In this document: positions 54,642-63,870 of the stretch, one piece after another
Position numbering within the stretch: position 1 is the stretch's first letter
How the letters are laid out: the number at the start of each line of letters is the position of its first letter
Source of the DNA: Erysipelotrichaceae bacterium
Lineage (GTDB): Bacteria > Bacillota_I > Bacilli_A > RFN20 > DUOF01
Assembly: GCA_015058985.1 (NCBI GenBank)
Contig: SVBH01000004.1
Span: 34,236-98,235, forward strand
Reading direction: 5' to 3'
Length of the DNA: 64,000 bases
Notes under the pieces: generated by a model
Told to the model about the DNA's origin: nothing
The model's input: only the letters and a program-made list of their open reading frames with translations
The model's database searches: none
Made by a program: the position numbers and the translations under genes

Positions 54642-54772
54642 GAAATTTATAAAAAAGCCATTTTCATTGTGTAAAACTTTTGAAAACTAGTTGCTTTTGA
54701 ACAAAAAAAGCGTTTTTACTTTTTTTATAATCTTAATTAGATTATACTATAACCATAGAGGAGTTGATTATC

Positions 54773-55924
54773 ATGGAAATGAACATTAACAAAACAAGTG
54801 TTGATGATTTCTACAAAGAAATGTTCAAAGGATCAGACAAAAATCAACAACTAAGATCATTAGAATTATCTTTTAATGCTCTATTTGATAACAAAATGTC
54901 AATTTTAAACAAAGAACTGTATAAACTAGGAAAACACAATGTTTTTAATCAAAACGGATCCTTAACCATGGAAAAAATACAAGATGGAGGATTTGTTTTT
55001 GAAATCAAAGACATTAAGATTTTAAATACAAATTACACTCCTATCTACTTAAAGGGAAATGATATCTTAAACCTTATGGATCAGTTAATTGAAAATATTT
55101 CTTATTTAGAAGCTTTTGTTAATATTGCAGAACAATCTACTAAAAATTTAAAACCTGAAGAAAAAAAGAAATTCACTGATAAAATCATGGATGAAGCTTA
55201 CGATAATTTTCCAAATCCTACTACCAATACAAAGCAAATTGAAAAAGAAGCAAAAATTGAAGTAGAAGTTAAAACAAAAATAGACAAAATCATTGATAAG
55301 TTACCACCAAAAATAAAGCACTTTGTAGAAACTGATTTAACTAACAAATATCTTTTAGAACACGTATCAAAACAAGTTGGAGACCCCGAAGCAAACTTAG
55401 AAAACATTGTAAACGAAAAGGTTGCTAAAAAGGTCGCAGAAGTTATAGAGCAAAAAGCCCCTGCTATCATTCATAGCTTAGATCCAAAAGGCAAAAAAGA
55501 ATTAGCACAATCCGTAGACAATGCTATCAAACAAACTGCAGCTACTCAAGACGTAAACATCCAATTAGCTCCTAATAAAAACGTTCCTGAAAAAGAGGAA
55601 ACAATTGCTAACCTTGAATACGTTGATCAAGTTGTCAATACACTTGATATCAATACTCTTAAAAAAGACGACAAAAAAGGCGAAAAAGGAGTTACAGAAA
55701 GACCTCTTAATGAAGAAGAAAAAGCTAAAATTGAGAAAAATCTTGGAACTGCTAAAAATATGTTCTCTGGAATCAACTTAGATTTTATTGAGAAAAATAA
55801 AGATATGGACTTCAAAGAATTAAGCGTGGAAGAATTCCAACAATTAAGCCCTGAAGAACAAACTGAATACTTGAAAAAACAAGAAGAATTTGAAAAGAAT
55901 TTTGTAGGTCCTCGTAGACCATAA
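54773..55924 (+). CDS. Soluble acidic/lysine-rich protein, hypothetical
   Basis: 383 residues from the ATG at 54773, with GAGGAG 9 bases upstream (an in-frame TTG at 54764 is less likely). Highly charged, few hydrophobic segments, no signal peptide. Predicted mainly helical; Lys/Glu-rich stretches (about 160-200 and 300-330) suggest coiled coil, and LSVEEFQQLSPEEQTEYL near the end repeats a Glu-rich pattern. The only plus-strand gene in the 11-62 kb stretch, standing between rplK and nusG. No known family. Confidence 0.55.
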   Translation: MEMNINKTSVDDFYKEMFKGSDKNQQLRSLELSFNALFDNKMSILNKELYKLGKHNVFNQNGSLTMEKIQDGGFVFEIKDIKILNTNYTPIYLKGNDILNLMDQLIENISYLEAFVNIAEQSTKNLKPEEKKKFTDKIMDEAYDNFPNPTTNTKQIEKEAKIEVEVKTKIDKIIDKLPPKIKHFVETDLTNKYLLEHVSKQVGDPEANLENIVNEKVAKKVAEVIEQKAPAIIHSLDPKGKKELAQSVDNAIKQTAATQDVNIQLAPNKNVPEKEETIANLEYVDQVVNTLDINTLKKDDKKGEKGVTERPLNEEEKAKIEKNLGTAKNMFSGINLDFIEKNKDMDFKELSVEEFQQLSPEEQTEYLKKQEEFEKNFVGPRRP

Positions 55925-56996: not shown

Positions 56997-57593
56997 TTAG
57001 CAATTTGTTAATTTTTTTCTGATCTTGTAAATAACATAATCTACTCTCTTAAAAGGTATTCCTACAATCTCTCCAATTTCTTTATAACTTTTACCTTCGC
57101 TTTTTAAAGTGATAATCTTTAGTTCCTCATTACTCAATTTGGAAAGTATTTCCTTTATACTATCACTTTTATCAGCAACGTCATAATTACCAGATACATC
57201 ACTAATAATATATTTAGACTCAACAGTATCAAGATAATTGATATCATCTAAACCATTCAAAGATGCATCTAAAGACAAAGCACTAGCTAATGCTTTCTTA
57301 CCATTAGAATTCTCACTTCTAATTTTCTTAATGATAAATCGATCCAAACATACCTTTAAATAAGAAATAAAACGACCTAAATTGCTATCATATTCATCAA
57401 TATAATTATCGAACACAGATAAGAAATCATTAAAAATATCTTCTACCTCGATCTTATTAAATCTCAGCAAACCTTTTTTATTATTAATCCATTTTAAAAC
57501 AATTTTCTTATATCTATCGAACAATAGATTATATGCTTCCTTATTATCTTCCCTAACAAGACTTATAAGTAAATCATCGCTACACTCATCCAA
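56997..57593 (-). CDS. Sigma-70 family RNA polymerase sigma factor (SigH-like)
   Basis: 198 residues. Sigma region 2 in FDRYKKIVLKWINNKK through FLSVFDNYIDEYDS; region 4 helix-turn-helix SYKEIGEIVGIPFKRVDYVIYKIRKK at the C-terminus. Length and location (between rlmB and rpmG) match SigH of Bacillus. Which genes it controls cannot be told here. Confidence 0.8.
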   Translation of the reverse strand: MDECSDDLLISLVREDNKEAYNLLFDRYKKIVLKWINNKKGLLRFNKIEVEDIFNDFLSVFDNYIDEYDSNLGRFISYLKVCLDRFIIKKIRSENSNGKKALASALSLDASLNGLDDINYLDTVESKYIISDVSGNYDVADKSDSIKEILSKLSNEELKIITLKSEGKSYKEIGEIVGIPFKRVDYVIYKIRKKLTNC

Positions 57594-58387: not shown

Positions 58388-58417
58388 AAAAGAAAAAGGA
58401 ACATTTGTTCCCTTTTC
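58388..58417 (-). terminator. Terminator of the giant repeat-protein gene
   Basis: AAAGGGAACA, AA, TGTTCCTTTT then TCTTTT on the minus strand, 10 bases after the stop. Confidence 0.75.
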
Positions 58418-58426
58418 TAATAATTA

Positions 58427-61400
58427 CTATTCAAAATAGACAATTTTCTTAAGTGCATCCTTACCAGTTGTAGGAGCATCTAAATTATCAATTTCACTGA
58501 CGATTGTATTGTAAACAAGTACATTATCAATAGCAATCTTCTTTTCATCTGGAATATCGTTAGAATTGATAACAGAAGCAACAATAACAGAATTTGCAAT
58601 CTTCTTAAACAATCCATCTTCACCAAACAATTCATTTACATTAGATGCATCAATTGTGAAATCTTCAAGAGGTAACATTGTTTCTAGTCCATCTTTAACA
58701 GCAAGTTCATTAGTCCAATTAATATCCTTAATGACTAAACTATCTACAAATTCAACATTAGTTGCAGTACTGACATCATTATCAATATCAATTTCTCCTA
58801 AAACAGATTTTAATCTAGACTTAATCTCTCTTTCAGCAACAGGACCAAAAATTGTAGAATCAGCTAGAACAAGCTTCAACTCATCAAGTTTAGGACCAAA
58901 TTCGTCACTTTCATCGCTAACACCATCAAATTCTTGTAATTTATCATAAACGTTGAATTCTTTTCTATAGTCAGCACCAAAGATATCTAAATTATCAATA
59001 TAATCCTCATATTCAGCTGTTTCAGAAGTTGTAGGATTATCTACATCTTCAAAGAAATAAGGTTTTACTAAACTCTTAATTTCATCAAATAATGTATCTT
59101 CAACAATATATTTAACAACTGTTGTGTCAGCAGCAGCAGTCATTGCAGCAGTAAGCTTATCTCCATCTCCACCTTCAACATTACTATAATCAGCATCTCC
59201 TGGATAATGGATAATCTCAAATTGATCTTTAACAGATACTTCATTATCCCAATTTACACTACCATCATTGTTATCATCAAAAATATCCAATGAATTAATA
59301 AATGTATCTTCAAATAAAGCAGTACCATCTTCTGCCTTTATAACAGCCAAACCATCTTTAACCTTTGTAGAAACTAAATCCTTAACTACGACAGTTTCTT
59401 TTGCACTATCAATAAAACTAGGAATCATTTCTATTTCTACATCTTTTTGAGTTTCGTGAGTAGCATCATCTGTTATATTCCACAACAATTCATTAGCAGC
59501 AGTTAATTCAACACTCCAAGATACTCCATCTGTTAATTCTTCTTGCGTTTTCTTATCAGTTCCATCTAATTCTAATAATTCATTAACTTTATTAGTAATT
59601 GAAGGTCCAAGAGTTTTTGACTCCAACAAGTTAGAAACAATAACACTTACATTATTTATTCTAATTTGAGTATCACTAGCACTAGGATCCATTTTTCCAA
59701 TGTTTTCAAAATCATTAACAGCATCTTCATTATCTAAAGCATTAACCAATAATTTTATTTCATTTTTCCAATCAGACTTAGTAAAATCATCAGTGCTTCC
59801 AACAACTAATGTTTCTCCATCAAATTCAAAACTATCAAGTTCTGTATTCAATTTACTAGTAACTACTTTATAAATAACATTAGATGCAAACAAAGTATCA
59901 ATATTAGCATCAACTTTTAAGATATCAACCATTATATCAGTAGTTTCTGCTCCATCTGCAAAGAACCCTTCATTAGATAACATTTTATATGCTCTTAATA
60001 AATTTTCTATTTCTTCTTCCCAAACAATTTCATCATAAGTTAAAGTCTCATCAATAGATTTAATTTGAGATTCAATAATATCTGGGAAAACAGCCATAAA
60101 TACTTCAGAAGAAACAATTGCATCACTTAATTCTTCTATCTCATCAACTTCTCCATCTACTTCTAATTCTGCTATAAATGTATTGACATCAAAATCATCT
60201 TCGAATGCACCGCCATCATAAAATACTTTCGCAGCTACTAATAAAGCTTCCATTTCAGTAGACCAATCAATGTCTTCTGGTAAAGAGACAGTTCCTTCTT
60301 CCATCATTGAAGTTAAAGTTTCTTCAAGAGTTGGTTCAATAATTTCAGGAATAAGAGCAGTTATAAGTTTAGAAGATCCCATCTTTTGTCCTAATAAAGA
60401 TACTTTTTCTTTAGTAGGTCCCAAAATAGCTTCTAACATATCCTGGTCATTTTCAATGGCATCAATAACACCCTCCTTAGAAAGAAGTACAGCTAATGAA
60501 ACAATATTTTTAATTTCAGTAGACCAACTAACATCTCCTAAATTTAAGTCTTCACTAGTATAATCTTTATCCAAAGTATCATTAAAATATTTAATAACAA
60601 ATGGTTCAACAACATTTCCAATAACTTGGGAAATTAAACTAGATTCAAATAAAGAATCTACCAACTCATTTGTCTCAGTTTCATTAACGTTTGATAAAAT
60701 TGCACTTCCTTTTGCAGAAAGCTCATATTCATTTGTCTCTGCATTCAACACAATTACACCAGTATCTTTAAATTTACTTACAGCAGTTAAAATAGCATGT
60801 AATTCTTCACTAAAATCAATTCCTTCTGTGTTAATAGTAACAGTCTTAGTTCCTCCAAAAGAACTAATTAATTCTTCTACCATTTCATCAAACTTAGGAA
60901 CCAAATAAGTATCATATAATTGTGTAATTAAATTAGATTTTTTAATACTTTCAACCAATCCATCAATATGTTCACCATCTAAATTTGCGACAATATTGTA
61001 GTAATTATCAGTTATTTCTGTTCCTTCAAATAAAGGCAACTTAACGATTTCACTTGCTATATTGAATAAATTTTGAATTTCTTGCTTAGCACTAATCTTA
61101 GTTAAATCAAAACCTTCTGGTAAATCCAACTCTTTCTCAATAACTTTAAATCCAACTTTTTCAATAATAGTAACTAATAATTTAACACTAGAAATAGAAT
61201 TACCTAACCTAGTTACATCCTCAGAAGTCAATTTACTTGCCAAAGCAGCAGCGTCCATTTCGCCTTCTAAAGATAATCCCTTTTTTTCTAAAGTTAAGTA
61301 AATATCAAAAGTATTCTTTAAATCTTGTTGAAGATTTATCTTTTCGCCATAAAGTTTCATATTAGACATTAATCTAAACATTCCTTTATCTAAATTAGCA

Positions 61401-61975
61401 ACAGACATAATTTTAGAAAAAGTACTATCGGTATAATAATTAGTGATATCACAACTATTAAATCCATCTAAACTAATACACTTAGTATTTCCTTTACTAT
61501 CCCTCAAAGTAGATAAAACACCTGTAAAAGGAGTAAGAATTAATACGAACGTTAAGAAACAGTTAGCAACACTGACTGCTGCTCCTCCAAATCTTGTTCC
61601 CCAAGTTTTTGCTCTTTTCTCCCCTTTAAAGATAATCTTTCTAAAAATTCTTCTAATAATTAATTTAATAGGGAATAAAACAATCCTTAAAACAAACCAA
61701 ACAATACCAGAAGCGAATATTCTAATTAAACTACTTAAAAATTCTTCTAGTTCTGAAGTTGTCATATATTCTGTCATATCATTTAGTGCTTCTTTTGGAA
61801 TCATATTCACTATCACTGACCCTAAAATAGGCATCAATAACCAAACTATCAAAAACAACACTAAATTATAACAAATGTTAAATGTGCTCTTAAACAATCC
61901 TTTCCATAATCCTAATAAAAAGGATAATCCTAAAAAACCAAAAAATACTATATCAATAATTGCTGATATTTCCAT
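58427..61975 (-). CDS. Giant CvpA-like membrane-anchored repeat protein
   Basis: 1182 residues. The N-terminal 160 residues hold four membrane helices with CvpA-like features: IDIVFFGFLGLSFLLGLWKG (7-26) and GGAAVSVANCFLTFVLILT. The remaining 1000 residues contain about ten degenerate repeats of 81-96 residues; each has a core such as VSWSTEIKNIV, IDWSTEMEALL, IVWEEEIENLL, VNWDNEVSVKD or INWTNELAVKD (at about 295, 386, 482, 569, 650, 734, 818, 907, 1000, 1085). Strongly acidic. It starts in a TAATG overlap with the upstream 158-residue membrane protein. Such domains with CvpA are unknown to me; a secreted or cell-surface role is inferred from topology. Confidence 0.65.
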   Translation of the reverse strand: MEISAIIDIVFFGFLGLSFLLGLWKGLFKSTFNICYNLVLFLIVWLLMPILGSVIVNMIPKEALNDMTEYMTTSELEEFLSSLIRIFASGIVWFVLRIVLFPIKLIIRRIFRKIIFKGEKRAKTWGTRFGGAAVSVANCFLTFVLILTPFTGVLSTLRDSKGNTKCISLDGFNSCDITNYYTDSTFSKIMSVANLDKGMFRLMSNMKLYGEKINLQQDLKNTFDIYLTLEKKGLSLEGEMDAAALASKLTSEDVTRLGNSISSVKLLVTIIEKVGFKVIEKELDLPEGFDLTKISAKQEIQNLFNIASEIVKLPLFEGTEITDNYYNIVANLDGEHIDGLVESIKKSNLITQLYDTYLVPKFDEMVEELISSFGGTKTVTINTEGIDFSEELHAILTAVSKFKDTGVIVLNAETNEYELSAKGSAILSNVNETETNELVDSLFESSLISQVIGNVVEPFVIKYFNDTLDKDYTSEDLNLGDVSWSTEIKNIVSLAVLLSKEGVIDAIENDQDMLEAILGPTKEKVSLLGQKMGSSKLITALIPEIIEPTLEETLTSMMEEGTVSLPEDIDWSTEMEALLVAAKVFYDGGAFEDDFDVNTFIAELEVDGEVDEIEELSDAIVSSEVFMAVFPDIIESQIKSIDETLTYDEIVWEEEIENLLRAYKMLSNEGFFADGAETTDIMVDILKVDANIDTLFASNVIYKVVTSKLNTELDSFEFDGETLVVGSTDDFTKSDWKNEIKLLVNALDNEDAVNDFENIGKMDPSASDTQIRINNVSVIVSNLLESKTLGPSITNKVNELLELDGTDKKTQEELTDGVSWSVELTAANELLWNITDDATHETQKDVEIEMIPSFIDSAKETVVVKDLVSTKVKDGLAVIKAEDGTALFEDTFINSLDIFDDNNDGSVNWDNEVSVKDQFEIIHYPGDADYSNVEGGDGDKLTAAMTAAADTTVVKYIVEDTLFDEIKSLVKPYFFEDVDNPTTSETAEYEDYIDNLDIFGADYRKEFNVYDKLQEFDGVSDESDEFGPKLDELKLVLADSTIFGPVAEREIKSRLKSVLGEIDIDNDVSTATNVEFVDSLVIKDINWTNELAVKDGLETMLPLEDFTIDASNVNELFGEDGLFKKIANSVIVASVINSNDIPDEKKIAIDNVLVYNTIVSEIDNLDAPTTGKDALKKIVYFE

Positions 61976-62451
61976 TATTGTTCCTCCTCTTTTTTATTAT
62001 TTTTGGAAAATAAATATTCCACATACATTTTTTTATAATAAATAATTCCAAACACCATATAAGATAAAAATACAAAATGAATTAAAAAACTTATAACATC
62101 ATATGAATAAAAATATAAAAACATATCTAAGAAATAAAAAGCTACAAAAGCAATGAAGAATTTTATCCTTCCTTTCTGCGACTCTTTCCATAGTAGAAAT
62201 ATCATGACCGATATCACTAGACTCATAGAAACATCTACAATAGGACCTAAAAATTTAGCATAACTAGAAACAAAGACTCCAAGCAGATTTGTCATTCTAT
62301 TAATTTCTAGCAAATAAATCATATGTTCATTACCAAACAAAAAGAAAATTGTTCTGATAATAACAAATGCACTTACAAGAAGTAATCCATTCGTTGATTT
62401 CAAATACTTTAAACGGTATTTTTGTACTAAATTACTCATTATTTTAATCAC
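61975..62451 (-). CDS. Small polytopic membrane protein, hypothetical
   Basis: 158 residues, four predicted membrane helices (about 20-36, 44-70, 76-95, 100-140) and a Lys/Glu tail. Stop TAA overlaps the ATG of the giant CvpA-like protein by one base, so the two should be produced together and may form a complex. No family recognised. Confidence 0.55.
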   Translation of the reverse strand: MIKIMSNLVQKYRLKYLKSTNGLLLVSAFVIIRTIFFLFGNEHMIYLLEINRMTNLLGVFVSSYAKFLGPIVDVSMSLVISVMIFLLWKESQKGRIKFFIAFVAFYFLDMFLYFYSYDVISFLIHFVFLSYMVFGIIYYKKMYVEYLFSKNNKKEEEQ

Positions 62452-62551
62452 CTGATAATATTATATATTATTTAAATCATTCTGTTAATTACTTTTTAAC
62501 TTCTTTCCATTATAAAAACATAAAAGTAATACACATTTATCGTTTTTATTA

Positions 62552-62580: not shown

Positions 62581-62601
62581 AGTTTTCGTGAGGTGAAAAC
62601 C

Positions 62602-63870
62602 ATGTATTTAAAGAGTAGAATTTTCAAAATTACAACTTTTTTATTAACATTAGCTGTTGTCATAGGAATTGGTTATGTTATTTACACCAATTGGGACGCC
62701 ATAAAATTTAAAACTAGAAAGACTATCGACAGCAACACAAAGAATAGTTACATAAAAATAAACGATGGTGCAAGAAACACTAATTCATTAGATGTTGAAG
62801 TAAGAGTTTCAACAGATAATATCAAAGCAAACTATATTTCATACCAAACTTGCTTTGATCCATTAGAAGGAAAGATAGTATGTAATGACTGGACAAATCA
62901 TTTAGACACTCCATTTATCAACTACATGGGTAAAGATATAAACTCTGACGCAGCATGGAAAAAAACAATAAGATTATATGATGGTTTACCAGATGAGCAA
63001 TTACAAGGAAGACACATAGTCAAAGTAAAATATTTCTATGTAGAACAAATCTTCGCAGGATCATCTGGATCAATAGAAGTATTAGAAACAAGATCAAATT
63101 ACATATACTATGATTCAATTGCTCCTAAGATTACAACAAACTCAACAAATGCTTGGACAGACAATAACTATTTAGAAGTAAAATATGACGATAAATCAAC
63201 AGTTGATTATATTGCATCTGGAGTAAAATCAATCAAATACAAACTTTGTTTAGACTTTGAAACAGTTACTGGAACAACGACATGTACAGAAGAAGCACCA
63301 GAAGTAAAAGTTAAAAAATCTCTAAATGGAAAATTCAAAATCAATTTAGAATTACCAAAAACATTTGTAACAATTACAGTCAAAGATAAAGCGGGTAATG
63401 AAACAATATTCTCTCAAGTATTAAGAAAAGATGATACAAATCCTGTAGTAACAATTAATCAAGTAAAAGACCCTGAGACAGGAAAATTATATTCTATTAA
63501 CGTATCAGCAACTGATACTAACTCTATGTTAAATACTTTAAAATATACATTCTCAAATAGCGATATTAGACCAAACGAAGCTGAATTTACTAACGAATTA
63601 TTTGAATACGACAATGTATCAATTGATCTTCCTACTAAAAACAAAACTTATTATTTATGGGTTAGAGCTGAAGATTACGCTGGAAACGTAACTTATAAAA
63701 ATAGTGGGCCATTATACATATGCGATAGTGTAGAATCTTGCGCCAAACTAACAAATGATAAAAAAGATTATATGACATTATTGTATGCTTCGATTGGAGT
63801 TGCAATTATAGCAACAGTATCAATATTTGTTATCTTATCTTCAAATAAAAAAAAGAAACACATTAAATAG
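62602..63870 (+). CDS. Membrane-anchored surface protein with Ig-like domains
   Basis: 422 residues from the ATG at 62602, with GAGGTG 6 bases upstream (an in-frame GTG at 62593 is inside the site). An N-terminal helix (about 9-32) acts as signal anchor, a C-terminal helix (about 397-416) precedes a Lys-rich tail. Between are two or three Ig-like beta domains; YYDSIAPKITTNS and FVTITVKDKAGNETIF are typical of Ig-like adhesin domains. Cys-pair segments (CFDPLEGKIVC, CLDFETVTGTTTC) resemble those in the lipoprotein at 33.9 kb. Own promoter and terminator. Confidence 0.65.
   Translation: MYLKSRIFKITTFLLTLAVVIGIGYVIYTNWDAIKFKTRKTIDSNTKNSYIKINDGARNTNSLDVEVRVSTDNIKANYISYQTCFDPLEGKIVCNDWTNHLDTPFINYMGKDINSDAAWKKTIRLYDGLPDEQLQGRHIVKVKYFYVEQIFAGSSGSIEVLETRSNYIYYDSIAPKITTNSTNAWTDNNYLEVKYDDKSTVDYIASGVKSIKYKLCLDFETVTGTTTCTEEAPEVKVKKSLNGKFKINLELPKTFVTITVKDKAGNETIFSQVLRKDDTNPVVTINQVKDPETGKLYSINVSATDTNSMLNTLKYTFSNSDIRPNEAEFTNELFEYDNVSIDLPTKNKTYYLWVRAEDYAGNVTYKNSGPLYICDSVESCAKLTNDKKDYMTLLYASIGVAIIATVSIFVILSSNKKKKHIK

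Follow-up and report, generated by a model that had tools for sequence, protein, structure and literature searches.

A CvpA-anchored repeat protein of giant size in small-genome Bacilli: a candidate sortase-independent surface chain

Introduction

Why would a bacterium with a genome of 836,898 bases (86.6% complete) maintain a protein of 1,182 residues that begins with a domain otherwise found in short membrane proteins and continues as a long, acidic tail? The question is raised by one gene in the window, the 64,000-nucleotide stretch of Erysipelotrichaceae DNA analyzed here, to which all coordinates refer unless a locus is named. The closest named relatives of the source genome are uncultured gut Bacilli. 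An earlier note on the same DNA had described the gene product as a CvpA-domain protein built from degenerate repeats and had suggested a large scaffold outside the cytoplasm. We examined its gene organization, membrane anchor, repeats, and distribution.

Results

Gene organization

The gene occupies positions 58,427 to 61,975 on the minus strand and encodes 1,182 amino acids, exactly as first read. Upstream on the same strand lies a small membrane-protein open reading frame (61,975 to 62,451; 158 amino acids from a GTG codon, an ATG at 62,439 being the likelier start). Its stop overlaps the start of the giant gene by one base (TAATG) and a GGAGG ribosome-binding site lies ahead of that start, in keeping with the translational coupling proposed earlier. 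A promoter-like site, TTAACA-17-TATAAT (62,460 to 62,488, minus strand), precedes the two genes with 11 of 12 matches, a score equally frequent in shuffled sequences. A terminator-like hairpin (58,391 to 58,418, minus strand; -15.4 kcal/mol, z of -4.6) follows the giant gene and was reported by the terminator scan on the other strand too. Because the hairpin stands after the giant gene and the promoter-like site before the upstream frame, it is plausible that both belong to a single unit. The small protein is probably not required as a partner of the giant one, since it gave only weak matches elsewhere and none in the three genomes of the same family; as a conserved partner it was rejected on the same grounds.

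Three other genes of the window deserve mention. Divergent from the giant gene, positions 62,593 to 63,870 (plus strand) encode a 425-residue protein with a helix at either terminus and possible Ig-like domains. Proteins of similar build, 414 to 445 residues long, adjoin short CvpA paralogues in genomes G001 to G003; homology is unsupported: a BLAST E value of 9e-4 in a four-sequence set pointed to kinship, which was rejected when 287 of 500 shuffles scored as well in a profile test. A sigma-70-like factor (56,997 to 57,593, minus strand), for which SigH-type models are nearest, lies between rlmB and secE, a place taken by an open reading frame of similar size in relatives (loci L063, L065, and L066). 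Between rplK and nusG, on the strand opposite the ribosomal genes, a charged, Lys/Glu-rich protein of 386 residues (54,764 to 55,924, plus strand) was not assigned to a family.

Membrane anchor and topology

Hydrophobicity places four helices within residues 3 to 155, and the CvpA-type domain as a whole covers residues 3 to 160 (61,496 to 61,969, minus strand). The Pfam Colicin_V model matched residues 7 to 160 with an E value of 2.4e-4, its 21.5 bits falling below the cut-off of 29.3; one relative reached 27.7 bits with the CvpA model (PF02674). When 23 N termini of the giant family were compared with 19 ordinary CvpA proteins by hhalign, the two profiles matched at 97.6% (E value of 4.4e-12) with helices 1 to 4 all aligned, and a hidden Markov model (HMM) of the giant-family N termini detected ordinary CvpA at an E value of 1.5e-8. 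These profile comparisons argue clearly for homology between the two and confirm the CvpA-like helices of the earlier note. Ordinary CvpA proteins of the same class measure about 160 to 300 residues and have no large outer region, so the remark that such proteins are normally short was also correct. CvpA proteins of intermediate size, about 570 to 590 residues and about 780 in another family, were seen in six members of the class (G284, G295, G317, G326, G342, and G350); they pass the Pfam cut-off and may bridge the ordinary and giant forms.

The orientation of the protein was read from its charges. Across 43 relatives, lysine plus arginine per 10 residues amounted to 0.48 in the N terminus, 2.70 in loop 1-2, 0.42 in loop 2-3, 2.53 in loop 3-4, and 0.67 after the fourth helix. 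Because strong basicity is limited to loops 1-2 and 3-4, both ends and the entire tail are predicted to lie outside the membrane, which matches the extracellular or periplasm-like placement suggested before. The family members that were fetched start with four helices and continue as a long acidic tail; net charge ranged from -13 to -197 in 24 proteins and was -131 for the tail of the window protein, whose acidity had been pointed out. No consistent second membrane anchor was found in these 24 proteins. Just after the fourth helix, C166 and C175 (61,451 to 61,480, minus strand) constitute a candidate disulfide. A similarly placed pair occurs in six of seven proteins of the same family, and four of these six, including the window protein, have no further cysteine along the tail, a pattern that fits a disulfide formed outside. 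DsbA, as a maker of disulfides, was not found in the window's family.

Repeat units

Segmented on the W-x-x-E core, residues 213 to 1182 fall into 11 units of 81 to 98 residues, all encoded on the minus strand. Five of them are strong: units 2 (residues 294 to 385; 60,821 to 61,096), 3 (386 to 481; 60,533 to 60,820), 4 (482 to 568; 60,272 to 60,532), 5 (569 to 649; 60,029 to 60,271), and 6 (650 to 733; 59,777 to 60,028). In leave-one-out HMMs, each scored above all 500 shuffles, and a family repeat HMM trained without the window protein found them (residues 294 to 733) at 8.9 to 22.1 bits, the best decoy reaching 8.1. Unit 1 (213 to 293; 61,097 to 61,339) is weak, with 14 of 500 shuffles as good. 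The remaining units are divergent. Unit 7 (734 to 817; 59,525 to 59,776) retains the W-x-x-E core only and fails the leave-one-out test (69 of 500 shuffles), unit 8 (818 to 906; 59,258 to 59,524) was equaled by 7 of 500, and unit 9 (907 to 1000; 58,976 to 59,257) by none. In unit 10 (1001 to 1084; 58,724 to 58,975) Y-x-x-E replaces W-x-x-E and 24 of 500 shuffles did as well; for the C-terminal unit 11 (1085 to 1182; 58,430 to 58,723) the figure was 2 of 500. Neither unit 1 nor any of units 7 to 11 rose above the decoys with the family HMM trained without the window protein; units 7, 8, 9, and 11 follow the tryptophan periodicity described below.

Since the leave-one-out test is favored by unit boundaries that were chosen on the W-x-x-E core, the family HMM and the tryptophan tests weigh more. 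Independently of any boundary, seven of the eight tryptophans of the ectodomain have a glutamate at position +3 (binomial P of 1.2e-6). Their spacings are 87, 81, 84, 84, 89, and 178 residues, the last being twice the period, and 1 in 100,000 random placements was as regular. An ungapped self dot-plot was marginal (best score of 52 versus a shuffle mean of 38 and maximum of 48). A lax first version of the repeat HMM, which fits itself, was dropped in favor of a strict, decoy-controlled one. By these sequence comparisons, units 2 to 6 are firmly supported as true repeats, and units 1 and 7 to 11 are likely repeats that have degenerated. The earlier count of about ten repeats of 81 to 96 residues with a W-x-x-E core therefore becomes 11 of slightly wider range, of which the five strong units stand firmly and the other six on the weaker tests; its prediction of self-similarity above chance was borne out.

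The decoy-controlled HMM recognized 100 units in 24 of 25 members from the order, with no decoy matches. On other orders, which had been held out, it gave 35 matches versus none in reversed sequences and none in fivefold shuffles, and in 117 genomes nearly all matches fell within giant CvpA frames. In the window's own genome, family-profile matches were confined to the giant gene, the extra ones being repeats inside it. These data bear on the idea that the tail is loosely constrained filler, grown by duplication and drift on a CvpA domain that alone is functional. The great divergence of the units, their variable lengths, and the failure of units 1 and 7 to 11 to reach the family profile are what such drift would leave. 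However, glutamate, serine, and proline positions are conserved across the order (93, 82, and 75%), repeats remain recognizable in other orders, and the gene is retained in a 0.84-Mb genome, of which it makes up 0.42%. We regard filler as highly improbable.

The conserved hydrophobic spacing of the repeat is that of amphipathic helices. AlphaFold2, given a single unit and the protein's own 11 units, returned an all-helical model of modest confidence (pLDDT of 69), whereas a model of two units from a five-row alignment was unusable (pLDDT of 38); the modeling that the earlier note had recommended thus speaks for a helical unit and yielded no confident multiunit structure. Searched with Foldseek, the single-unit model had no match in the PDB (best E value of 2.4), and no Pfam repeat model matched the giant proteins. 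From the spacing and the model we infer that a stacked helical array of units is plausible.

The large region matched no model in Pfam or NCBIfam, the weak anchor match apart, and a PDB sequence search found no match for the giant protein. Nor did the giant proteins show any known domain for ligand binding, wall binding, or enzymatic activity. A role like that of MarP, in which a CvpA-type four-helix anchor carries an outer effector domain acting in wall or stress physiology, would agree with the common layout, as MarP has its C-terminal domain in the periplasm, preceded by four helices at the N terminus (PMC4992679). The window's family also makes penicillin-binding proteins, so a wall is present to act on. 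Such an effector is nonetheless improbable given that neither a protease nor another enzyme domain was detected in Pfam, NCBIfam, or PDB sequence searches.

Distribution and descent

Used as a single query, one protein led to five genomes; single-sequence searches with the window protein in genome and viral collections returned no relatives, and none was found in viral contigs with a relative's sequence as the query. A profile built from the five reached 148 of 279 genomes of the order and 36 of its 56 genera. Among the best 113 order matches, the median frame was 2,102 residues, some frames being cut by contig ends. A single genus includes about 14 species whose members measure 2,100 residues. 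Across the class, a profile of 23 N termini matched 170 of 395 sampled genomes and 86 of 193 genera, with frames of up to 6,056 residues. Most relatives measure 1,200 to 2,800 residues and one exceeds 6,000, so giant size is common in this branch of CvpA throughout order and class. Judging by these profile matches, the family is spread over many small-genome relatives of mycoplasmas; some genomes of the order gave no match despite good assembly. In G387, a family member of at least 6,049 residues (L155, 1 to 18,147) adjoins a paralogue of 1,098 residues (L156, 1,410 to 4,703); pairs of family genes also occur in G372 (L164) and, with more intervening genes, in G357 (L170).

A tree of N termini united the window's taxonomic family (96/95) and cleanly set apart a second one; within the former, the window protein branched outside two paralogue types. 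As the tree tracks taxonomy, descent appears to be mainly vertical. This pattern counts against a surface adhesin or a protein that binds host or substrate, with repeats setting its reach, since adhesins are often patchy in distribution. A large, outward-facing, repeat-built protein of variable size has the look of one, and several of its close named relatives were sampled from animal guts, but no known adhesin or binding domain appeared in any library searched. We consider an adhesin rather unlikely.

Gene neighborhood and cellular setting

In 14 of the 17 loci fetched from outside the window's family, the giant gene is flanked on one side by divergent CPBP and TraX genes and on the other by YigZ, often a few bases apart, and in most of them Mrp follows YigZ. 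This block is conserved across the order: genes for TraX and the Rce1-like CPBP are transcribed away from the giant CvpA gene, and on the far side of the latter come YigZ (UPF0029) and, in most cases, Mrp; it is present in L053 (1,366 to 11,016), L059, L051, L055, and ten other loci. The window gene lies outside this neighborhood, and the conserved neighbors CPBP, TraX, YigZ, and Mrp give no pointer to a surface scaffold. At the syntenic locus, the giant protein ranges from 619 to 2,178 residues. This is the result of looking for orthologues with varying repeat number, as had been suggested.

Such variation is odd for a gating domain, a point that matters for the view of the CvpA domain as an exporter or channel for small solutes, with outer repeats that regulate or gate it, for instance by sensing envelope tension. 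That view draws on work with enteric CvpA, which is needed for deoxycholate resistance in EHEC and Vibrio and has been likened to transporters or MscS-type channels (PMC6705877), and on the classwide conservation of the membrane domain. With the outer part so free in size at one locus, we judge a channel unlikely.

Of 117 genomes from the order, one has a sortase; none was found in the window's own genome, at its 86.6% completeness. This near absence agrees with what has been reported for RFN20, and both sortase loss and thin or absent walls are reported for related orders (PMC10868615). A multihelix anchor for a large surface protein would suit a sortase-poor, thin-walled setting. The absence being nearly order-wide, it allows no correlation with the presence of the giant protein.

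Discussion

The reading that we prefer, and to which we give about an even chance, is that the giant protein serves as a surface chain or scaffold, helical, variable in length, and anchored in the membrane without the help of sortase; this function is deduced from its architecture. The four-helix CvpA-type domain would be its membrane root, leaving both termini outside. After helix 4, about 1,000 residues here and up to more than 5,800 in relatives would form a succession of degenerate, acidic units rich in helix, all on the outer face of the membrane. As a scaffold or spacer, the chain may fill or organize the gap that separates the membrane from the wall or the surroundings. Sortases being nearly absent from the lineage, the multihelix anchor would take over the holding of a large surface protein.

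A broader proposal is more tentative, and we would sooner doubt than assert it: that helical repeat chains rooted in a CvpA domain, from 600 to over 6,000 residues long and with an undescribed repeat fold, are a main sortase-independent surface architecture of the small-genome Bacilli related to mycoplasmas, one that has survived as genomes shrank and walls thinned or disappeared. The family of the anchor is a known one; beyond it, neither the repeat nor the overall architecture is represented in Pfam or NCBIfam. A partial literature search found no published description of either, and one may exist elsewhere.

CvpA has been known as a short membrane protein, and here it anchors giants in more than half of the genomes examined from the order and in 43% of those sampled from the class. 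The family is kept in lineages that otherwise shed genes. If the surface chain is real, it would show how surfaces can be built without sortase in thin-walled or wall-less relatives of mycoplasmas, and a poorly understood protein family would gain a testable role.

Comparison with known systems

The nearest known relative is the CvpA/Colicin V production family (PF02674; CvpA of Escherichia coli, YshB of Bacillus subtilis), whose four-helix membrane domain is, by profile comparison, homologous to that of the giant family. Its ordinary members are short, whereas the window protein is long, carries a large outer region, and scores below the Pfam cut-off. Sortase-anchored surface proteins of Gram-positive bacteria also tie a long, repeat-built outer region to the envelope. 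The giant protein has an N-terminal multihelix anchor instead and no LPXTG-type sorting signal was found at the C terminus of the giant proteins. The likeness is one of analogy only. The helices of mycobacterial MarP are of the CvpA type. MarP (Rv3671c) is a membrane-anchored serine protease in which four N-terminal helices precede a large C-terminal domain outside the cytoplasm (PMC4992679). The giant family shares the four N-terminal helices and, by the charge pattern of 43 proteins, a C-terminal region predicted to lie outside. The close MarP homologue MAP0403, in contrast, has 397 residues and a trypsin-like protease domain, whereas no enzyme domain or sequence relation was detected for the giant protein, and Pfam, NCBIfam, and PDB sequences revealed no trypsin- or chymotrypsin-like protease domain in it. 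Likened to the giant family by annotation and length, gene 0669 of Mycoplasma bovis (1,398 bp, listed as nonessential) encodes a CvpA family protein (PMC4045577); at about 465 residues, it is larger than ordinary CvpA and comes from a wall-less relative.
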